The position numbers and the translations under genes were made by a program. 24,658 nucleotides of DNA from a virus, in IMG/VR virus record IMGVR_UViG_3300049597_000054, positions 1 through 24,658 of that record. One strand, given 5' to 3'. The notes beneath the pieces are model-generated. The model had not been told where the DNA came from, did not search any database, and saw nothing but the letters and a program-made list of their open reading frames with translations. How positions within the stretch are numbered: position 1 is the first letter of the stretch; each line of letters begins with the position of its first letter. Positions 2,641-19,798 of this stretch are shown here, one piece after another.

Positions 2641-3090
2641 TTATGATTCTATTATATTGTCTAGCTCACATATTGTCAAGACTTGTGATATTTCTTTAAC
2701 AATGCTTTCAATCTGTATAACAACTTCTACTGAAGTCGTTCCAGCTGGAGCTATTATTGAATAAGTATGAATTGGCGATGTTCCGTGATAAAAAAAGGGA
2801 TCGCCATCAAAACTAATAAAAATATCATACCTTGGACGATTAACTTCATCATCCCAAACAATTGTAACTGATGAACCAGAAACTGTTAATTCTCCTGAAA
2901 CTTGTGGTGGCAAAGACTGTAAAGAAAAAACTGTTAATGGTGTTATTTCTGACCAGTGAGAAAACTTATTTCTGTCTTCTGACACAATACGGTATCTTAG
3001 AAGGTGTCCATAAACATCTTCTGCTAACTTTGCTAAAGGGGGAAAGTCTTCTTTTCTAATAATAACTTTTTTAATTCCAGAATCAGCCAC
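2641..3090 (-). CDS. Minor tail protein with fibronectin-III-like segments
   Basis: A 149-residue structural protein. Residues about 25-55 (LLRYRIVSEDRNKFSHWS) look like the end of a fibronectin type III-like domain. Residues about 62-140 form a second beta-sandwich-like segment with the pattern 'VTIVWDDE..RP.YDIF...DG..FYHGTSPIHTYS', which I associate with minor tail proteins of phages related to those of actinobacteria. No enzymatic residues are apparent, so the probable role is a structural or adhesive part of the tail tip. The start is GTG 3088-3090, sharing one base with the stop of the preceding gene (TAGTG). The ribosome site is weak (GGATGTG), so translation probably depends on coupling. 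The 3' end carries the perfect promoter for the next gene. Confidence 0.72.
   Translation of the reverse strand: MADSGIKKVIIRKEDFPPLAKLAEDVYGHLLRYRIVSEDRNKFSHWSEITPLTVFSLQSLPPQVSGELTVSGSSVTIVWDDEVNRPRYDIFISFDGDPFFYHGTSPIHTYSIIAPAGTTSVEVVIQIESIVKEISQVLTICELDNIIES
2651..2679 (-). promoter_or_regulatory. Perfect-consensus sigma70 promoter
   Basis: On the minus strand this reads TTGACA (2674-2679), exactly 17 bases, TATAAT (2651-2656). All twelve hexamer bases and the spacer are consensus. It overlaps the 3' end of the upstream minor tail gene. The predicted transcription start is near 2644, just before the AAGGAG ribosome site of the gene starting at 2630. Confidence 0.78.
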
Positions 3091-4895
3091 TACGTCACAT
3101 CCAATATAAATCTATATTCAATATAGTTGCTAGTGTTTTCAGACTTTACGATTGTAGTTGCAGAAGAATTTTGAACAATAGAATATCCAGTTAGTCCATA
3201 CAAAGGATTTACAGTGTTTACGTTATCAAGCCTTAAAGCGTCTAGCGAAATGTAAAATTCACCACTTGCGTATTGTGCTTCTCCGTCTGGATCTAACGCT
3301 GCTGAAGTAACGTTTCCATTAGTTTTAGCATAAGTAAATGTAGTTGCTGTTGGTGTTCCAGTAATTAAATGGATACCATTAAAAATTGAATCAATGCCGC
3401 TAATTTTTACATAATCGCCTGTTGTAAAAGAATGATTTTCGCTTGTTGTTAGGGTTGCAACATTAGTTGTTAATGCTTTGTTGGTTATTAAAATTGTATC
3501 AGTGGTCGTTGCATAAATTCTAACAATTGAAACATTTTTCCAGGAAAATTGTCCAGTATTATAGAATAGTTCATCTAGTCTTTTTGTTGCAACAATGTAT
3601 CTATTGTCAGCAGAGTAGTCTTTTATTTTTTCTGATTCAATTTGCATCCATGCATATTGGCTTCTATCAGTATTGCTAAATTCAACAATGATATTTGCAG
3701 AAACTGGAATTGCATTAGACTCTCCAGTTACAGAGACTATAGAAAAGGCTAGCTTGATTAGATCTGATGATGAGTTTTTACTTAGATCTGTGGGCAGTCC
3801 AGTAATCTGTAAAAAGTTTGGAGTTCCGTTATATGTTAAAAAGTCTTCATCGTTAGAGTATATGTAAGAACTATTTCCTTTTAGCAATAAAACATTTGAA
3901 AGATATCTTGGTCTTTCGTATCTTTCTATTCTTGTTGTATTAGAAAAAATAGCATTGCTAGCTGTGGTTTTAATTGCCAGAGGCTTTAGTGTTTCTGTAC
4001 CTGATGTGCCTTCAAGATCAACGCTAATGACGTTAGAGCCATTGATGATAGAGTTTTGAGCTTCAACAAAGTTTGAATTTATTGAAGATGCATTGCTTAC
4101 GCTATTACTAGAAACTAGTTGCCAAGGCTCTTCGCCAGAAAAAGCAGATATTGTTTTACTGTCGTATCTTCCTGCTGCTGAGTTAGATCCTGCAGAATAA
4201 ATTCCAATTTCTGAAATTTCGTATCTCTCTTCAGTTGGTAGCTGTGCAGTTAAAATAATTTTATTAACACCATCGTCATTTACATATCCACGTGAAGAAA
4301 TTGGAACACGAAGCATTTCAAAATCTAAAACATTTTTGTTTGGATCAATTTGTAAGTATAAAGTTGCTCCAGAAAGATTTGTTGTTGGTCCTGGAGTAAC
4401 TATAAAGTTTGTGCTAGAACTAATCGCTGTAATAATTGTATCAGTAGTTGTACTGAATACTCCAGTTCCAGCAGTGATAGTTACTTTTGCACCTACCCAC
4501 AATCCTTCTGTAGATGCTGCAGATAAAACTTGTGCAACTATTCCAGTATTGAAGGTAATAGCCCCAACTGTGTTTGTAGTTGTTGATGTTACTGTAATTA
4601 TTGTTGGACCATCAATGCTTGTTATTGTTGTTATGCCACCAAAAACTCCTGTTCCCGCAGTTTTTGTAACTCTCATTCCTACCACTAATCCAACAGTAGA
4701 CGAAAGACCAGTAACTTGTGTTGCCAAAGTTGTAGACAAAATCTCTCCAGACAATGTTGCAGTTGATACTCCAGATTTTGTGGTAATGTTTGGTCTTGGA
4801 GCAGGTCCACATCCAACTGCGACATATGAGGCATATGCTGGAGTGTCTCCAATGAGATACTTTGCAATAATGCTTTTTCCAGTATTAGTTATCAT
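3090..4895 (-). CDS. Minor tail protein carrying inserted beta modules
   Basis: A 601-residue minor tail or fibre protein. The N-terminus (MITNTGKSIIAKYLIGDTPAYASYVAVGCG) and residues about 188-250 (DFEMLRVPISSRG, then AQLPTEERYEISEIGIYSAGS) together look like one attachment domain common in minor tail proteins. They are separated here by two Gly/Thr-rich modules (residues about 48-183). A second region (about 325-600) looks like a jelly-roll (strand pairs such as VSIVRIYATTT and EFYISLDALRLDN), and it too is interrupted, by a different module at 471-541. The start is ATG with an AGGA ribosome site, two bases after the preceding stop, and a TGGTATAAT element lies just upstream. The protein probably links the tail tip to receptor-binding parts. 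Family membership is from pattern recognition; the fold claims are inference. Confidence 0.78.
   Translation of the reverse strand: MITNTGKSIIAKYLIGDTPAYASYVAVGCGPAPRPNITTKSGVSTATLSGEILSTTLATQVTGLSSTVGLVVGMRVTKTAGTGVFGGITTITSIDGPTIITVTSTTTNTVGAITFNTGIVAQVLSAASTEGLWVGAKVTITAGTGVFSTTTDTIITAISSSTNFIVTPGPTTNLSGATLYLQIDPNKNVLDFEMLRVPISSRGYVNDDGVNKIILTAQLPTEERYEISEIGIYSAGSNSAAGRYDSKTISAFSGEEPWQLVSSNSVSNASSINSNFVEAQNSIINGSNVISVDLEGTSGTETLKPLAIKTTASNAIFSNTTRIERYERPRYLSNVLLLKGNSSYIYSNDEDFLTYNGTPNFLQITGLPTDLSKNSSSDLIKLAFSIVSVTGESNAIPVSANIIVEFSNTDRSQYAWMQIESEKIKDYSADNRYIVATKRLDELFYNTGQFSWKNVSIVRIYATTTDTILITNKALTTNVATLTTSENHSFTTGDYVKISGIDSIFNGIHLITGTPTATTFTYAKTNGNVTSAALDPDGEAQYASGEFYISLDALRLDNVNTVNPLYGLTGYSIVQNSSATTIVKSENTSNYIEYRFILDVT
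3273..3485 (-). repeat. Inserted beta module in minor tail protein (residues ~471-541)
   Basis: This segment encodes a self-contained module with the pattern 'N.ATLTT...H.FTTGDYVKISGID..FNG...ITG.PTATTFTYA'. It separates two strands of what looks like one jelly-roll (SIVRIYATTT before, EFYISLDALRLDN after). Modules of this type occur scattered in phage virion proteins. Its boundaries are estimates. Confidence 0.55.
4347..4754 (-). repeat. Two tandem Gly/Thr-rich beta modules in minor tail protein (residues ~48-183)
   Basis: Two copies of a module of about 60-65 residues lie in tandem. Copy 1 has VTGLSSTVGLVVGMRVTKTAGTG and copy 2 has LSAASTEGLWVGAKVTITAGTG, each followed by 'VF' and a threonine-rich strand pair. 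The TAGTG core matches the modules in the 1731-residue tail protein at 6838-7674. They sit between two halves of an N-terminal attachment domain. Confidence 0.62.
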
Positions 4896-5688: not shown

Positions 5689-8600
5689 CTACACCTCACT
5701 CAAGTATACGGTCATTTCGGGTCCGCTAACAGACCTACGATAGTTAATATTATATACTACATACCTAACAGATTCTGGAGTTATTAGATCAATACCTTCT
5801 GAATCTTTATAATAAACATTAACCAAGTCTCCAAGTTGTAGGGTTGGCATTGAAAAAATATCCAAACCAATTGATTTACGTGGCCTAATATTTTTATCAA
5901 TTATCCACTCTAGCAAATTTTCTGCAGTGTCTAAATCTTGTATATATATAGAATCTAGGGTAAAATCATTTTTACCATAAAGAATTCTGCTCTGTCTAAT
6001 TTTTTCGTATTGCTCTGTAAACTTAAAGGGAGATTCAGTTATTACAGATCCTTTAATTTCTGGGTCTGAAGTGTTTCCCCTTCTTTTCAAAAAATCATCA
6101 ACGGTTACACTTGTAGTGTTTTCACCAGTAAAAGCAATACCTAAAATTCTAAGTGAATTGTTTGTACTAGAATCTAACAATAGGGCTGAGTCAGTATTAT
6201 TAAATACTAAAAATTCTGCTCCATAAGAATCTGCGGTAAAGCCAGAAACAGTATACCCCTTCAGTCTATTAAATGTTGGGGCAATCTTAGCATATAGTGC
6301 TGGGAAGGCACGTTCATATTTAATATTAAAGTATGCAGCTTCACGCATAATAGTTCCAAATTCTTCAAAGTATAGGTCATATCCTGGGGTAGACGTAGAA
6401 CTTATATCACTTAGATATGTATTCTGTACAATACTGCTTAGGGCATATTTACTAAGAGACTCAATAGCATTAATCTGATTGTCAGAGTCCCCAAAAACTT
6501 TTGCTATTGGAACGTTTGTATCAAACACAGTATTTGTTGCATAGTTTTTACCAAGGGCATAAATATTTTCAAACATGGCCCTTGCATTTCCACGAACAAA
6601 AAGACCAACTGATGAGTTTACTATTGGAAGCGGATCATCATCTGTTACTCTTCCTACTAGCTGTTGATTTATATATAAATAGAAATCTCTTCTTGTTGCA
6701 TTAACGTCAACGTATTCAATAGCTAAGTCGTATACCGTTGGATTTTCCTCACCTGTAAGCCTATACTGTCCAGCAAAGTTTCCATCATCTACGACAATAT
6801 TTCCAATTCCACCCCACAGCTTAACTGGAACTGCCTTAGTTGCTGTTCCTGCTGTTGCACTTATCTTGTCTCCAACACGTAATCCAGAAGTTGATGTTAG
6901 TCCAGTTAGTCTTGCATCCCAAACGGTAGTATAGTCTACAGTTGTTCTTGCGTTTGTTACTGTGCCAGCCGTAGGAGTGGTTCCTCCAGTAACAAGATAA
7001 TTTATTGAGGTAGAGCTATTAATTTTTTCAATTAAAACAGAAGTTGGAGTCCCTCCAAACAAAGTTCCAGTGCCTGCAGTTGCTATTATTTGGTCACCAA
7101 CATCTAGCTGAGAGGTGGAGGTTAGCCCACTTAGAGTTGCTCTAAAAACTCCACCATCAAATGATTCTATGCTTGAGACTGTTCCAGTAGCTCCAAACAC
7201 TATTGGTGTTGGTTGAGTTATGTCTTGAACAACTCCAACTTCTCCAAAAATTATTTCAGACTCTACAATAGTTTTTATGGCAGTTACATTTCCTACAGTA
7301 GGGGCTGTTCCTCCAGTAACACGATAACTAATTGCTCTAGTGCTTTCATTAATTGACGTTACTTCTACAGAAGTTGGAGACCCTCCAAACAAAGTTCCAG
7401 TGCCTGCAGTAGCTGTTATCTTATCTCCTATACGCAATGCAGAGGTAGTTTTGCCTTCTCCAGTTAAAGTAACTATTGCATTCCAAACTGAAGTAACTCC
7501 TACTTGAGATATGGATGAGACTGTTCCTGGACCAAAAGTTCTTTCGGGATCTGGAATAGTTTTTGGACTATTTAAAGTTCCAGCTATTGGTGTAACACCT
7601 CCAACAATACGATAAGAAATTGATGTTCCTGGTCCAACTTGTGTTATTATGGGAGTTCCTCCACCCAAAAATCCTGTATTTGCATCTTTCTTTATTTTAT
7701 AGAAAAGAATATTTTCAACTAATGTGGTTGCTTCTCCATTATCATTTTTTTCTATTAGCTCTTCTATATTGGAGGTAGTCAAAGCTGCTATCTCAAAGTA
7801 GTAGCCATTATTTGTTAGTGGATTTACTAAGTTTATTCCAGCTGAACCACCACCAACAGATATGGTTTGTGTTGGATCAGTACCAGCTATATTAAGATAT
7901 GTCATTCCACCCACAATGCTTTGAGACCTATTTCCTGCTGCTTCAACTTTACCAATGATTCTAAGTCTAGTTCCAAAGTGTTTGTATGCCTTATTGAGTT
8001 TTTTGTGAACATAAGAAATGTGATCTCTTGGAGTAGAGGCGGGAGCAAATGATGGACCATTCATCACCAAGGCTGATGACTGAATTGTAGCTGCTTTAGT
8101 TGTTTTTAAAGAAGAAACGTCTGTTTCTGTAGAATATTTTGAAGACAAAAAGTTTCTAATAATTCCATTTCTTTGAGTTTTTTCTGCAGTTGTTTTTGCT
8201 ACTCCAGCTTCTCCAAGTTCTGTTGTTGGCAATGATGGATTAAAGTCAGTAGTAAAAAGTAAATCACTTCTCATTTCACAACCTTGAATGTTATCATTGT
8301 TTGTCCAGTATGCATCTAGTCCAGCTTTATGACTTACCACTGGTGTCCCAAACTGACCACGGCCATGCGACAACACTTCCCCAGGTTTAAGTTTTATTGG
8401 AGCATCAATTAGCGTATCATTTTCTGTTATTGTTATTCCAGTAATTGTTTCATAATATGGATCAGCAAAGATTCTAACAAGCCCTGTTGGATAAATTTTT
8501 CCATTAAATGGTATCTTTGAAAAGTAATTTTGATATTCAAGGTTATCTGATATCCACACATCGCCAATGCCAGAAACATTATACTCAACAGCATCATACT

Positions 8601-10884
8601 TAATTATTTCTCCATTAGAATAAAGCAATCCTTGAAACCTTGCAATCCAATAAGCGTTTTCTCCAACATCAAAAGTATTATTAATTAATTCACCATTAAC
8701 AGATACGGTTGGGACAGAGTCTGACAAGTCAGTATTTAGTGGCAGTGCTGATAGAACATAGCCAGTCTGGTCTCCAGCATTAGCAGAAGATGTTTTTGAG
8801 CTTCCAGCTGCCTCCCACAATAGAGATGGCTTGTAGATATAACTTCTATCTACAAATTTATTTTGTTGAATAGTTCCAGCTGTTCTTGCAATTTGTCTTG
8901 AAGTAAAATTAATAGTTCCAGCATTAAAAACAGATTTGTCTTGAGAGGAAATTTCAATAATGTTTGGAAGCTTTCCATCTACTGATGATCCATATATTGT
9001 TGTATCTAAAGATCTTTCAGTAGACTCATCTAAAATGTATTCTTTTGTCATTACCACAAAATTATTGTATTCGTCAAAGAACATTGCTGACTGAGTTGCT
9101 CTTGATAGTTGAGCTAAGGTTTCTGCAATGCTTTGTTCTGGTGGAATAAAAAAGTTTGGAATAACTGGATCTAATGAATTGGTTTTTCTTTTGAAGACAT
9201 AATTAGAAAATCCAATTGAGTCTAACAGGATACAAATTGCCTGACTTAAAGATACCTCAGTTAATAATATTCTTGGAGCTTTTAGTGATTCAAAATAAAA
9301 GTAAAAATCTCTTAGCGTAAGAGTGGTTTCTCCTGTTTGTGCATTGCGCTCAGGGAAACCTTCAGAGTATAAAGTTTTAATTGGGACATAATAGTTTGAA
9401 TCATTTACATTTTTTATAACATCATAAAACACAAATTTAATATTTTTTTGAATATGCTTGGCAATAATACTACCACTTTGACTATCAAAGCTCCATTCAT
9501 TGTTTGGATTAAAGGATTGATCATTATCAAATAGGCTTAAACTTCCAGTCCCAGCCATTATTTGTCCTACTGGCAAAGCAGATGATGCCAAGTCAGCTGC
9601 TGCTTTTGTTATGTCAAAAGCTATAATGCTGTTAGATAAATTTGCTACTAGTCTTGGTGATATTTCAATAAGCTCCAATGTAGTATTTGGAATATTCATT
9701 GTTTCTACAACTAAGCGAATACCCTTTAAAAATACAAACTCTCTATAAGTGTTGTTGTCATTTTCATTTTCTACATAGTATGATGGATTAGTAAAATCAG
9801 TTACAAAATGTGTATTTTCATACAGTTCGTCACTACCAATAAACCATCTATAAGATGGAGTAATTGTGTCATAGTCTTCACCATTAAAAATATGCAGAAC
9901 TCCCTTTGAGTTTTCTGTTGAAACAACTAGGTATGCTCTACCAAGAGTATTGATTACTGGCAATGTTACGGCGCTTCTAATAGTGTCAACAAGTACAAAA
10001 TTATTTTTATATTCAGAAGGAATTTCAATTCCATACTCAAGGCTTAGGTGTCCATCTGCATTAAATATCGGGCTTGTGTTGTCATCTCTAAGAGATGTCT
10101 CGTCAAAACTATAAGCAGCCACCCACTGATCAAGCTCGTTTAAGTATTCAACTTTAAATCTTGACGGTACTGTTTTTCTAGATTCTCCAAAAAATGGATC
10201 ATCTATTGTTAATCCGCCAGGAGATCTGAATGGTCCCAAGTCTATACTACCAATATTAGTTTGAAGCTTTACGACAATTCTGTTTGCTGGAACTGGTTCT
10301 TTGTATACTACAAAAGGATTAGTATCTTCAATAGTGTGGTTACCAACAATGCCAGCAGCACTATTTTTTGACACTCCATACTCAGAGCTTATGTTGGTTA
10401 TAGAATCAGTTTCAGTCCTATAAGATCTCCAATATTTAAATTCATCATCTTTGGTTGGCATGTAATATCTTGGACGCAAAAACATATTTACATTTGGAAA
10501 CGATAAATATTTATTATTAAAATATGATAACTTGTTTATACCAGACCTTGGCCTAAATGGTTTTAAACAATCTTCTAAAGAATATAACATTTTTTCTTTA
10601 TCTTTTGGATAAATAAAAATTTGTGGGGTAGTTCCATCTTCTTCAAAACCATCTTGTATGCCAATGTCTGCATCTGTGGCACCAGTATAAAAATTTCCAG
10701 AATCATATGCGTCAAAAATATTTGGAAGTACACTATACTGTGCACTATTTTTCCTATATCTATAGTTACCTATTTTTTGAATATTGTCTGGATTATTCAT
10801 ATTCCATTCTGCAACTACAGCTGTCGCAGACTCAACTGAAAAAGATGTTTCCAGATGATTTTTTAGCTCATCATTCTGAAACAC
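5689..10884 (-). CDS. Giant tail hub/tip protein (1731 aa) with an interrupted concanavalin-like domain
   Basis: By size and position, two genes after the tape measure, this is the central tail hub or tail-associated protein. Residues about 430-640 look hub-like (GTGSLSLFDNDQSF; ETTLTLRDFYFYFESL; FFIPPEQSIAETLAQLSRAT, then SAMFFDEYNNFVVMTKE). The C-terminal ~110 residues (IYIQDLDTAENLLEWIIDKN, then LQLGDLVNVYY) also resemble the end of gp27/Tal-like hub proteins. Residues about 953-1440 contain a concanavalin/LamG-like domain (GYYFEIAAL... ILFYKI; KLWGGIGNIVVDDGNF; DFYLYINQQLVGRV), split by about 279 residues of repeats. No lytic or peptidase motif was recognised. The start is GTG 10882-10884 with a GAGGT ribosome site; it begins directly at the end of the preceding gene. 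Tail role is confident; domain names are inference. Confidence 0.85.
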   Translation of the reverse strand: MFQNDELKNHLETSFSVESATAVVAEWNMNNPDNIQKIGNYRYRKNSAQYSVLPNIFDAYDSGNFYTGATDADIGIQDGFEEDGTTPQIFIYPKDKEKMLYSLEDCLKPFRPRSGINKLSYFNNKYLSFPNVNMFLRPRYYMPTKDDEFKYWRSYRTETDSITNISSEYGVSKNSAAGIVGNHTIEDTNPFVVYKEPVPANRIVVKLQTNIGSIDLGPFRSPGGLTIDDPFFGESRKTVPSRFKVEYLNELDQWVAAYSFDETSLRDDNTSPIFNADGHLSLEYGIEIPSEYKNNFVLVDTIRSAVTLPVINTLGRAYLVVSTENSKGVLHIFNGEDYDTITPSYRWFIGSDELYENTHFVTDFTNPSYYVENENDNNTYREFVFLKGIRLVVETMNIPNTTLELIEISPRLVANLSNSIIAFDITKAAADLASSALPVGQIMAGTGSLSLFDNDQSFNPNNEWSFDSQSGSIIAKHIQKNIKFVFYDVIKNVNDSNYYVPIKTLYSEGFPERNAQTGETTLTLRDFYFYFESLKAPRILLTEVSLSQAICILLDSIGFSNYVFKRKTNSLDPVIPNFFIPPEQSIAETLAQLSRATQSAMFFDEYNNFVVMTKEYILDESTERSLDTTIYGSSVDGKLPNIIEISSQDKSVFNAGTINFTSRQIARTAGTIQQNKFVDRSYIYKPSLLWEAAGSSKTSSANAGDQTGYVLSALPLNTDLSDSVPTVSVNGELINNTFDVGENAYWIARFQGLLYSNGEIIKYDAVEYNVSGIGDVWISDNLEYQNYFSKIPFNGKIYPTGLVRIFADPYYETITGITITENDTLIDAPIKLKPGEVLSHGRGQFGTPVVSHKAGLDAYWTNNDNIQGCEMRSDLLFTTDFNPSLPTTELGEAGVAKTTAEKTQRNGIIRNFLSSKYSTETDVSSLKTTKAATIQSSALVMNGPSFAPASTPRDHISYVHKKLNKAYKHFGTRLRIIGKVEAAGNRSQSIVGGMTYLNIAGTDPTQTISVGGGSAGINLVNPLTNNGYYFEIAALTTSNIEELIEKNDNGEATTLVENILFYKIKKDANTGFLGGGTPIITQVGPGTSISYRIVGGVTPIAGTLNSPKTIPDPERTFGPGTVSSISQVGVTSVWNAIVTLTGEGKTTSALRIGDKITATAGTGTLFGGSPTSVEVTSINESTRAISYRVTGGTAPTVGNVTAIKTIVESEIIFGEVGVVQDITQPTPIVFGATGTVSSIESFDGGVFRATLSGLTSTSQLDVGDQIIATAGTGTLFGGTPTSVLIEKINSSTSINYLVTGGTTPTAGTVTNARTTVDYTTVWDARLTGLTSTSGLRVGDKISATAGTATKAVPVKLWGGIGNIVVDDGNFAGQYRLTGEENPTVYDLAIEYVDVNATRRDFYLYINQQLVGRVTDDDPLPIVNSSVGLFVRGNARAMFENIYALGKNYATNTVFDTNVPIAKVFGDSDNQINAIESLSKYALSSIVQNTYLSDISSTSTPGYDLYFEEFGTIMREAAYFNIKYERAFPALYAKIAPTFNRLKGYTVSGFTADSYGAEFLVFNNTDSALLLDSSTNNSLRILGIAFTGENTTSVTVDDFLKRRGNTSDPEIKGSVITESPFKFTEQYEKIRQSRILYGKNDFTLDSIYIQDLDTAENLLEWIIDKNIRPRKSIGLDIFSMPTLQLGDLVNVYYKDSEGIDLITPESVRYVVYNINYRRSVSGPEMTVYLSEV
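6838..7674 (-). repeat. Tandem Gly/Thr-rich module array splitting a domain of the tail hub (residues ~1071-1349)
   Basis: Two full and two partial copies are visible. The two full copies carry RIGDKITATAGTGTLFGG and DVGDQIIATAGTGTLFGG, each followed by 'PTSV', an 'IN.ST' turn and YxVTGGTxPT. A fourth, truncated copy (RVGDKISATAGTAT) ends at KAVPVKLWGG, where the host domain resumes; a first partial copy (GGGTPIITQVGPGTSISYRIVGG) begins straight after KIKKDANT. Removing the array would join KIKKDANT to KAVPVKLWGG and give a plausible continuous domain. Confidence 0.68.
7040..7410 (-). repeat. Near-identical 41-base direct repeats 330 bases apart
   Basis: Bases 7040-7080 and 7370-7410 match at 40 of 41 positions by eye (both begin gaagttggag and end cagtgcctgcagt). 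The distance is 330 bases, exactly 110 codons. The flanks also match more loosely (for example gttcctccagtaaca near 6980 and 7310). They encode the TATAGTGTLFGG core of two array units. Confidence 0.85.
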
Positions 10885-19091: not shown

Positions 19092-19730
19092 TTATGATGT
19101 TGCGTTGACTGTGCGGTCAATGATTTTTCCATAAGATCCTTCTGAGTCATCTGGTAGAAGACGGAAAGATACTTCAAACATGGAAGCTTCATCACGCTTA
19201 GCTGATACTGTAACATTCTCAATTGACAATGCACGGTATGCAACGTAAACACGCTCTAGAGCTGAACCAAGTTCACAGTCGCCAGTTCCTGGACCTACTG
19301 CAATAATTCCACGCTCTACTGGGCACTCACCAAGATCTCCTGCGGACAAGTCTAATGCTCGTCCAGTTGCAAGGGATCCAAGTGTTCCAGTTAGCTTGTT
19401 ATCTCCATATGCAAGAGCAATAAGAAGATTCTCTAGTGTAGCCTCAGCAAATGCTGTGTTAAGATTAACCTGCATTCCCTGCTTGTATAGCTTAGCTACG
19501 TCTAGTAGCTGGTCAACCTGAACTTCTCCGAAGTCTGGCTGAAATTGAATCTCAAGTCCATTCATTGTGTAACCAATGTTTGTAAAACCTGGGTCATCAG
19601 ATAGTGTTTCACGATAAGACTCATTGTCAACAAAAGTTGGTCTAGTACTGATATCCAGTACTGTGTCAGCAACAAAGAACGAAGCTGCACCTACAATAAT
19701 GTTGGTAGAGTCACCACGAGTATATGCCAT
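19092..19730 (-). CDS. Major tail tube protein
   Basis: A 212-residue protein that polymerises into the tail tube. Evidence is position (after the tail terminator, before the chaperones and tape measure), typical length, and a beta-rich sequence (IIVGAASFFVADTVLDI; MNGLEIQFQPDFGEVQVDQL; IENVTVSAKRDEASMFEVSF). The N-terminus MAYTRGDSTN and the turn 'F.PDFGEVQVDQL.D..K' are features I associate with siphovirus tube proteins. The frame extends three codons further to a GTG at 19739, but that GTG is part of the AGAGGTG ribosome site, so ATG 19728-19730 is the better start. It has its own candidate promoter upstream (TGATATAAT at 19799-19807) and a terminator downstream, as expected for a protein needed in hundreds of copies. 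Confidence 0.85.
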   Translation of the reverse strand: MAYTRGDSTNIIVGAASFFVADTVLDISTRPTFVDNESYRETLSDDPGFTNIGYTMNGLEIQFQPDFGEVQVDQLLDVAKLYKQGMQVNLNTAFAEATLENLLIALAYGDNKLTGTLGSLATGRALDLSAGDLGECPVERGIIAVGPGTGDCELGSALERVYVAYRALSIENVTVSAKRDEASMFEVSFRLLPDDSEGSYGKIIDRTVNATS

Positions 19731-19798
19731 AATTTTCACCTCTTTCTAGTAGGAAAAATGGTATTTAGTTATAATTGGCGGTTGTTTCCTCAAGACTA

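Follow-up and report, generated by a model that had tools for sequence, protein, structure and literature searches.

An array of three homologous units interrupts a domain of a 1731-aa tail protein encoded in the window, i.e. the whole 24.7-kb virus record analysed here. The array is probably a portable beta-barrel module, inserted in frame into a loop of the protein and giving it an accessory surface contact. Units of the same family are found in other virion proteins of uncultured phages, and most homologues of the tail protein are empty at the site.

The window carries head genes, the gene for an Ig-domain protein, a tape measure gene and a 223-aa gene, then the gene for the 1731-aa protein and more tail genes. 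The protein shares about 25% identity with Streptomyces phage minor tail proteins. On the basis of gene order, 'hub' is a reasonable name for it and is used below; gene order is also the only basis on which it may be identified as Tal, and no match to a hub structure was found. A 215-aa protein encoded at window positions 19092-19739 (minus strand) matches phrog_2175 (protein with Ig domain), so that a conventional Ig-like decoration is also present in the window phage.

Array and repeat units

The features discussed are reported in Table 1, with positions referring to the window.

Table 1. Position of the array, its units, its flanks and the second carrier gene
Feature	Position	Strand	Basis or remark
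Host gene, 1731-aa tail protein ('hub')	5689..10884	-	phrog_10359 minor tail protein; two genes after tape measure gene
Inserted array, residues 1071-1347, three units, in frame (277 codons)	6844..7674	-	unit alignment and shuffles; missing in most homologues
Unit A, residues 1071-1162, starts mid canonical unit	7399..7674	-	unit alignment
Unit B, residues 1163-1272	7069..7398	-	unit alignment
Unit C, residues 1273-1347, stops mid canonical unit	6844..7068	-	unit alignment
Canonical unit, residues 1228-1320, query for structure prediction	6925..7203	-	six strands, pLDDT 90.3
Host-domain flank before array, residues 985-1070	7675..7932	-	contiguous with other flank in homologues
Host-domain flank after array, residues 1348-1465	6490..6843	-	contiguous with other flank in homologues
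Second carrier, 601-aa tail protein, two diverged units at about residues 51-177	3090..4895	-	loop empty in most homologues

A preliminary description of the window had placed an array between the sequences KIKKDANT, whose last residue is 1070, and KAVPVKLWGG, whose first residue is 1350. This was confirmed by comparing the three units: local alignments between them score 132, 148 and 169, whereas in 300 shuffles the mean score was 35-37 (sd 6-7) and the highest 61-68. A G-x-L-x-G-G motif is found at the start of each unit and ATAGT at its end. As DNA, the units are 71-89% alike across stretches of 62-83 nt; the array was not reported by Tandem Repeats Finder.

In other proteins the canonical unit reads GTVSSI...WTATITGL...VGDKITATAGTG...GGTTPTAGTVTNI, spanning from GTVSSI to GTVTNI. 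When set in this phase, the hub array consists of a half, two full and again a half unit, cut between AGT and GTLFGG, a point which falls between strands 3 and 4 of the predicted unit. Module size is about 75 aa per unit, and both Cys and His are absent from the array.

The GC content of the array is 40%, compared with 31-37% in the flanks. A foreign-composition origin was rejected, because the excess is accounted for by amino-acid make-up, the GC3 of the array (15%) being slightly below that of the flanks (18-23%). A target-site duplication at the junctions was also rejected, the shared ACAG consisting of four bases only, no more than expected by chance.

Empty and filled loops in homologous hubs

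In a first set of 80 homologues, the array was absent in 77, and in three a different insert was found at the array loop. After a second search and the removal of duplicates, 89 distinct hub sequences were available. The site is empty in 82 of them, both close and distant, the array is present in the window and in locus L082, and five (L004, L045, L047, L168, L169) contain an FCCH-like insert at the column of the window array. The array is also present in L084, a partial sequence from a phage almost identical to that of the window; its occurrence at this loop is thus limited to the window phage and near-twins. The array-free L002, 77% identical to the window before the site and 85% after it, reads straight across FYKVKKGTGSNTKAVPIKLWGG, its sequence over the site being FYKVKKGTGS-NTKAVPIKLWGG. 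The preliminary expectation that homologues lacking the array exist was therefore borne out, L002 included, and the situation named there as contrary to an insertion, an array carried by all homologues, is clearly not the one found.

In a tree built without the inserts, the carriers of the array and those of the FCCH-like insert form separate clades, each fully supported, and two changes are needed. Nested as both are among numerous empty rows, they suggest two gains, the tree alone not polarising gain versus loss. The array loop appears to have been filled at least twice, because five distant homologues hold a different, FCCH-like insert there.

Relatives of the hub also contain inserts at columns 132, 165, 729, 772 and 1051. 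The one at column 165 is found in L083, located on the same contig as L119: it is 189 residues long (residues ~165-355, near the N-terminus) and contains the module family of the window. L083 is empty at the array site of the window, to which it is about as close as L002, so that the same module family occurs at different places in two close hubs.

Carriers and predicted fold of the module

The unit was searched against IMG/VR, where 127 stretches were confirmed and 79 of their loci kept. The loci analysed contain 119 module hits in 86 ORFs, falling into 10 groups which stay separate after masking of the module; part of the 86 ORFs are close to copies of one another, and the lowest-scoring hits (about 10-15 bits) should be taken as uncertain. 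The carrier groups match PHROGs of tail fibres, long-tail-fibre distal subunits, baseplate-wedge-like and virion structural proteins, including the virion structural phrog_2941 and phrog_5838, which by name are not host-contact proteins. Module DNA from carriers with non-alignable flanks shows 75-79% identity across 93-115 nt. In L161 1688-3421 (plus strand), two module copies (residues 191-267 and 489-565), each preceded by unrelated sequence, are 91% identical as DNA; this pair is taken to reflect recent duplication or exchange. When the array was searched against Pfam, PHROGs and PDB sequences, all matches were sub-threshold; no copy of the unit was detected in isolated phages by tblastn, and a pattern-based scan of GTDB genomes, which reaches close relatives only, revealed no relative.

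Homologues with an empty site were identified for three proteins carrying the module: the hub, the 601-aa protein and a phrog_2941-like 330-aa protein. About 70 homologues of the 601-aa protein were aligned, most of which go straight over the loop (e.g. DNFAT-KENLDFEMFRVP), while the loop is filled in the window, L082, L084, L003, L119 and L006. The unit of L006 groups, with modest support, with those of the 330-aa proteins, and the units of the window with those of L003 and L005, so that the loop may have been used by more than one subfamily. A separate FCCH-like stretch is located near residues 470-530 of the 601-aa protein. Within the 330-aa family, which matches phrog_2941, L086 holds one whole unit between DDTL and NQTVQSN; MW202484 (Manatee Spring; L226 1195-2181) is without a unit at that site, reading GDSL-NPIVQNN. 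Both MW202484 and L108, another member of the family, have other extra segments elsewhere, at two further places. The empty sites, together with the units found in other proteins, support the earlier proposal of a shuffled beta module inserted in a variable loop of the tail tip.

The structure of a single unit was predicted by AlphaFold2 from 41 aligned rows, with a pLDDT of 90.3 and a pTM of 0.81; according to the model, which is of high confidence, the unit would fold as an independent six-stranded beta domain. Comparison with solved structures by Foldseek gave no match below E=0.09, the best being a riboflavin synthase barrel (TM 0.63-0.64). E1 chains containing FCCH (E 0.3-1, TM 0.31-0.46), the phi92 endosialidase and the JBD30 baseplate appear in lower lines. 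Against predicted viral proteins, the unit strongly matches proteins without a name from uncultured phages (E=5e-8, TM 0.87) and, more weakly, a structural protein of Synechococcus phage S-WAM2. When the units were compared with the FCCH-like inserts by hhalign, a probability of 24% was obtained, and neither the array nor any of the 41 unit rows matches Pfam E1_FCCH (PF16190) at the curated cut-off. The unit has no match to a carbohydrate-binding family in Pfam or among PDB sequences, nor to a bacterial Ig-like or BACON profile, and no CBM is found among the best 50 matches of the PDB fold search.

Cutting out residues 1071-1347, much as had been proposed (for residues ~1071-1349) in order to restore a single domain, gives the natural state of most homologues, and to this extent the proposal holds; that the joined flanks fold as one domain is not equally supported, the AlphaFold2 model of the whole interrupted region being weak (mean pLDDT 65.6). 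In this model the strands of unit C agree with the single-unit prediction, and its Foldseek matches are uninformative. We only infer that the array projects from the hub loop, because the whole-region model is weak. The sequence pattern of the interrupted domain is suggestive of a concanavalin A-like fold. The label, already given in the preliminary description, was not confirmed by Pfam, by PDB sequence search or by Foldseek, where the query was the weak model: no match to Pfam LamG/ConA was obtained with 18 array-free rows, and a PDB profile search with the host domain gave one weak lectin line (E=1.3).

Selection, origin and likely role

Comparison of the array in the window (6844-7674) and in L082 (4725-5555) by a counting method gave an estimated 13 synonymous and 2 non-synonymous differences over 277 codons, with a dN/dS of 0.056; in the flanks the ratio is 0.067-0.070. 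These counts imply strong purifying selection on the hub array. Its synonymous difference (5.7%) is below that of all 91 other overlapping hub segments of the same size (9.4-19.3%), and a Fisher test of the array versus the rest, made after looking at the data, gave p=0.0005. Synonymous divergence is near zero in units A and B (residues ~1081-1260), compared with an average of about 14% in the rest of the hub. This is a hint, and only a hint, of a recent array exchange between the lineages of the window and L082, phage genes being mosaic. The number of units is also the same in both, and at the depth of this comparison the hub array is not hypervariable. The description of the array as rapidly evolving does not agree with a dN/dS of 0.06 and with fewer synonymous changes than in the flanks. 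The 601-aa proteins of the window and of L082 differ in their module region, more so than in the sequence that directly follows, which is almost unchanged.

According to the preferred reading, the module would have come from the gene of another virion protein, through recombination that was illegitimate or relied on short homology, and duplication would then have enlarged it. The host domain would keep its fold because the insert exits and re-enters through one loop. On the assembled tail tip, the units would form a projecting decoration that adds weak, accessory binding at the cell surface, probably to glycans, as CBMs do in evolved Dit and Tal proteins. Judged by this analogy, accessory adhesion is the most likely role of the array, which would decorate the surface and bind glycans. 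The adhesion role, as a specific one, is weakened by the carriers of the phrog_2941 and phrog_5838 type, since by name they are not host-contact proteins. The same carriers, virion structural proteins without known host contact, favour the main alternative, a non-adhesive structural decoration, in which the module is a spacer or stabiliser tolerated in virion loops, folding well, harmless and free of any specific ligand; the lack of a match to binding families also agrees with it. However, tail fibres and tail tip proteins are numerous among the carriers, and the low dN/dS of the hub array suggests more than a neutral spacer, although a stabiliser would fit as well. We regard this alternative as possible, but not as the likely one. 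A host-range cassette, in which the number and sequence of the units turn over rapidly to track the host surface, would account for the differing module regions of the 601-aa proteins, next to nearly identical sequence, and for the close similarity of the L161 copies. It is improbable for the hub, where unit number and sequence are the same in the window and L082, with two estimated non-synonymous changes in 277 codons, and where synonymous change is below that of all other segments tested.

Two further readings concern the way in which the array arrived. It could have been present in the common ancestor of the hubs and lost by almost all descendants, which the tree alone would allow and with which the insert at the same loop in a distant clade would agree; the carriers, however, are one small clade among many empty rows, the insert of the distant clade is another sequence type and many separate clean losses would be required, so that this history is disfavoured as very improbable. 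Still less credit can be given to a self-propagating element, as suggested in the preliminary description, in which module DNA would move by a mechanism of its own (intein-like, homing or transposition). The family does occur in many unrelated genes, two of them in the window phage, and one line of the PDB search leads to an intein-like domain (E=0.49). Yet no mobile-element feature was found in the array, nor any intein or nuclease family, and Cys and His are missing among possible splicing residues. A 29-nt piece of array DNA matches contigs of the same phage only, no donor was found, and identical module DNA with constant ends was not seen in different genes. A recent copying of the hub array from the downstream 601-aa gene was considered and rejected, because the two arrays of the window phage belong to different subfamilies.

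The phenomenon itself is of a known kind: shuffled domains of phage tails have been described, mostly named ones such as Ig-like, CBM and BACON, and recent domain mosaicism is over-represented among tail proteins (PMC10684548). Within it, the hub module is a new, unnamed family, without a Pfam or PHROGs entry, found in about ten virion-protein groups of uncultured phages with clean empty sites in three. An unnamed part of environmental virus proteins has thus been delimited and given a predicted fold, along with a role that can be tested. More speculatively, and with the odds rather against it, an undescribed small beta-barrel family might be passed around among uncultured phages and serve them as a common set of parts for accessory contact with the host, module DNA supplying the homology for recombination between unrelated virion genes.

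The closest parallel is offered by siphophages of Gram-positive hosts, in which CBMs are located in loops of Dit and, less often, of Tal, some having been shown to bind host cells (PMC7291167). As in these evolved Dit and Tal proteins, a beta-rich module occupies a loop of a tail-tip protein, is present in some relatives and missing in others (82 of 89 hubs), and similar modules recur elsewhere in the virion, for example in major tail proteins in the siphophage case (PMC7291167). The hub module differs in lying outside the carbohydrate-binding families, its candidate ligand role being drawn from analogy, in comprising three tandem units, and in its host domain, which belongs to the later part of the hub and is neither a Dit galectin nor a gp27-like N-terminal domain. 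Tail-associated BACON arrays of crAss-like phages, which arose by duplication and transfer between lineages and for which binding is suspected but unproven (PMC6949934), are likewise tandem small beta domains in tail-associated proteins of uncultured phages; the hub unit is another domain, unrelated to BACON by Pfam scan, and its array interrupts a host domain for which empty-site homologues exist. Phage Ig-like domains are also portable beta domains, spread over unrelated virion proteins by recombination (PMC10684548), whereas the hub unit is predicted to be six-stranded and barrel-like, and in the Foldseek list it comes closer to the barrel of riboflavin synthase (TM 0.64) than to Ig folds.

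The E1 FCCH-like domain has a strand pattern similar to that of the unit (...GL.VGD.V.I.G...G.Y.VT.I...) and, in other lineages, occupies the same hub loop, but no hub unit reaches Pfam E1_FCCH. More than one module type fills the same loops, and the inserts mark which loops of a tail hub tolerate insertions. In a distant hub clade (L004, L045, L047, L168, L169, L171-L175), FCCH-like beta inserts are located near window residue 1051, in a neighbouring loop, and five members of the clade have an FCCH-like insert also at the loop of the window array, near residue 1344.
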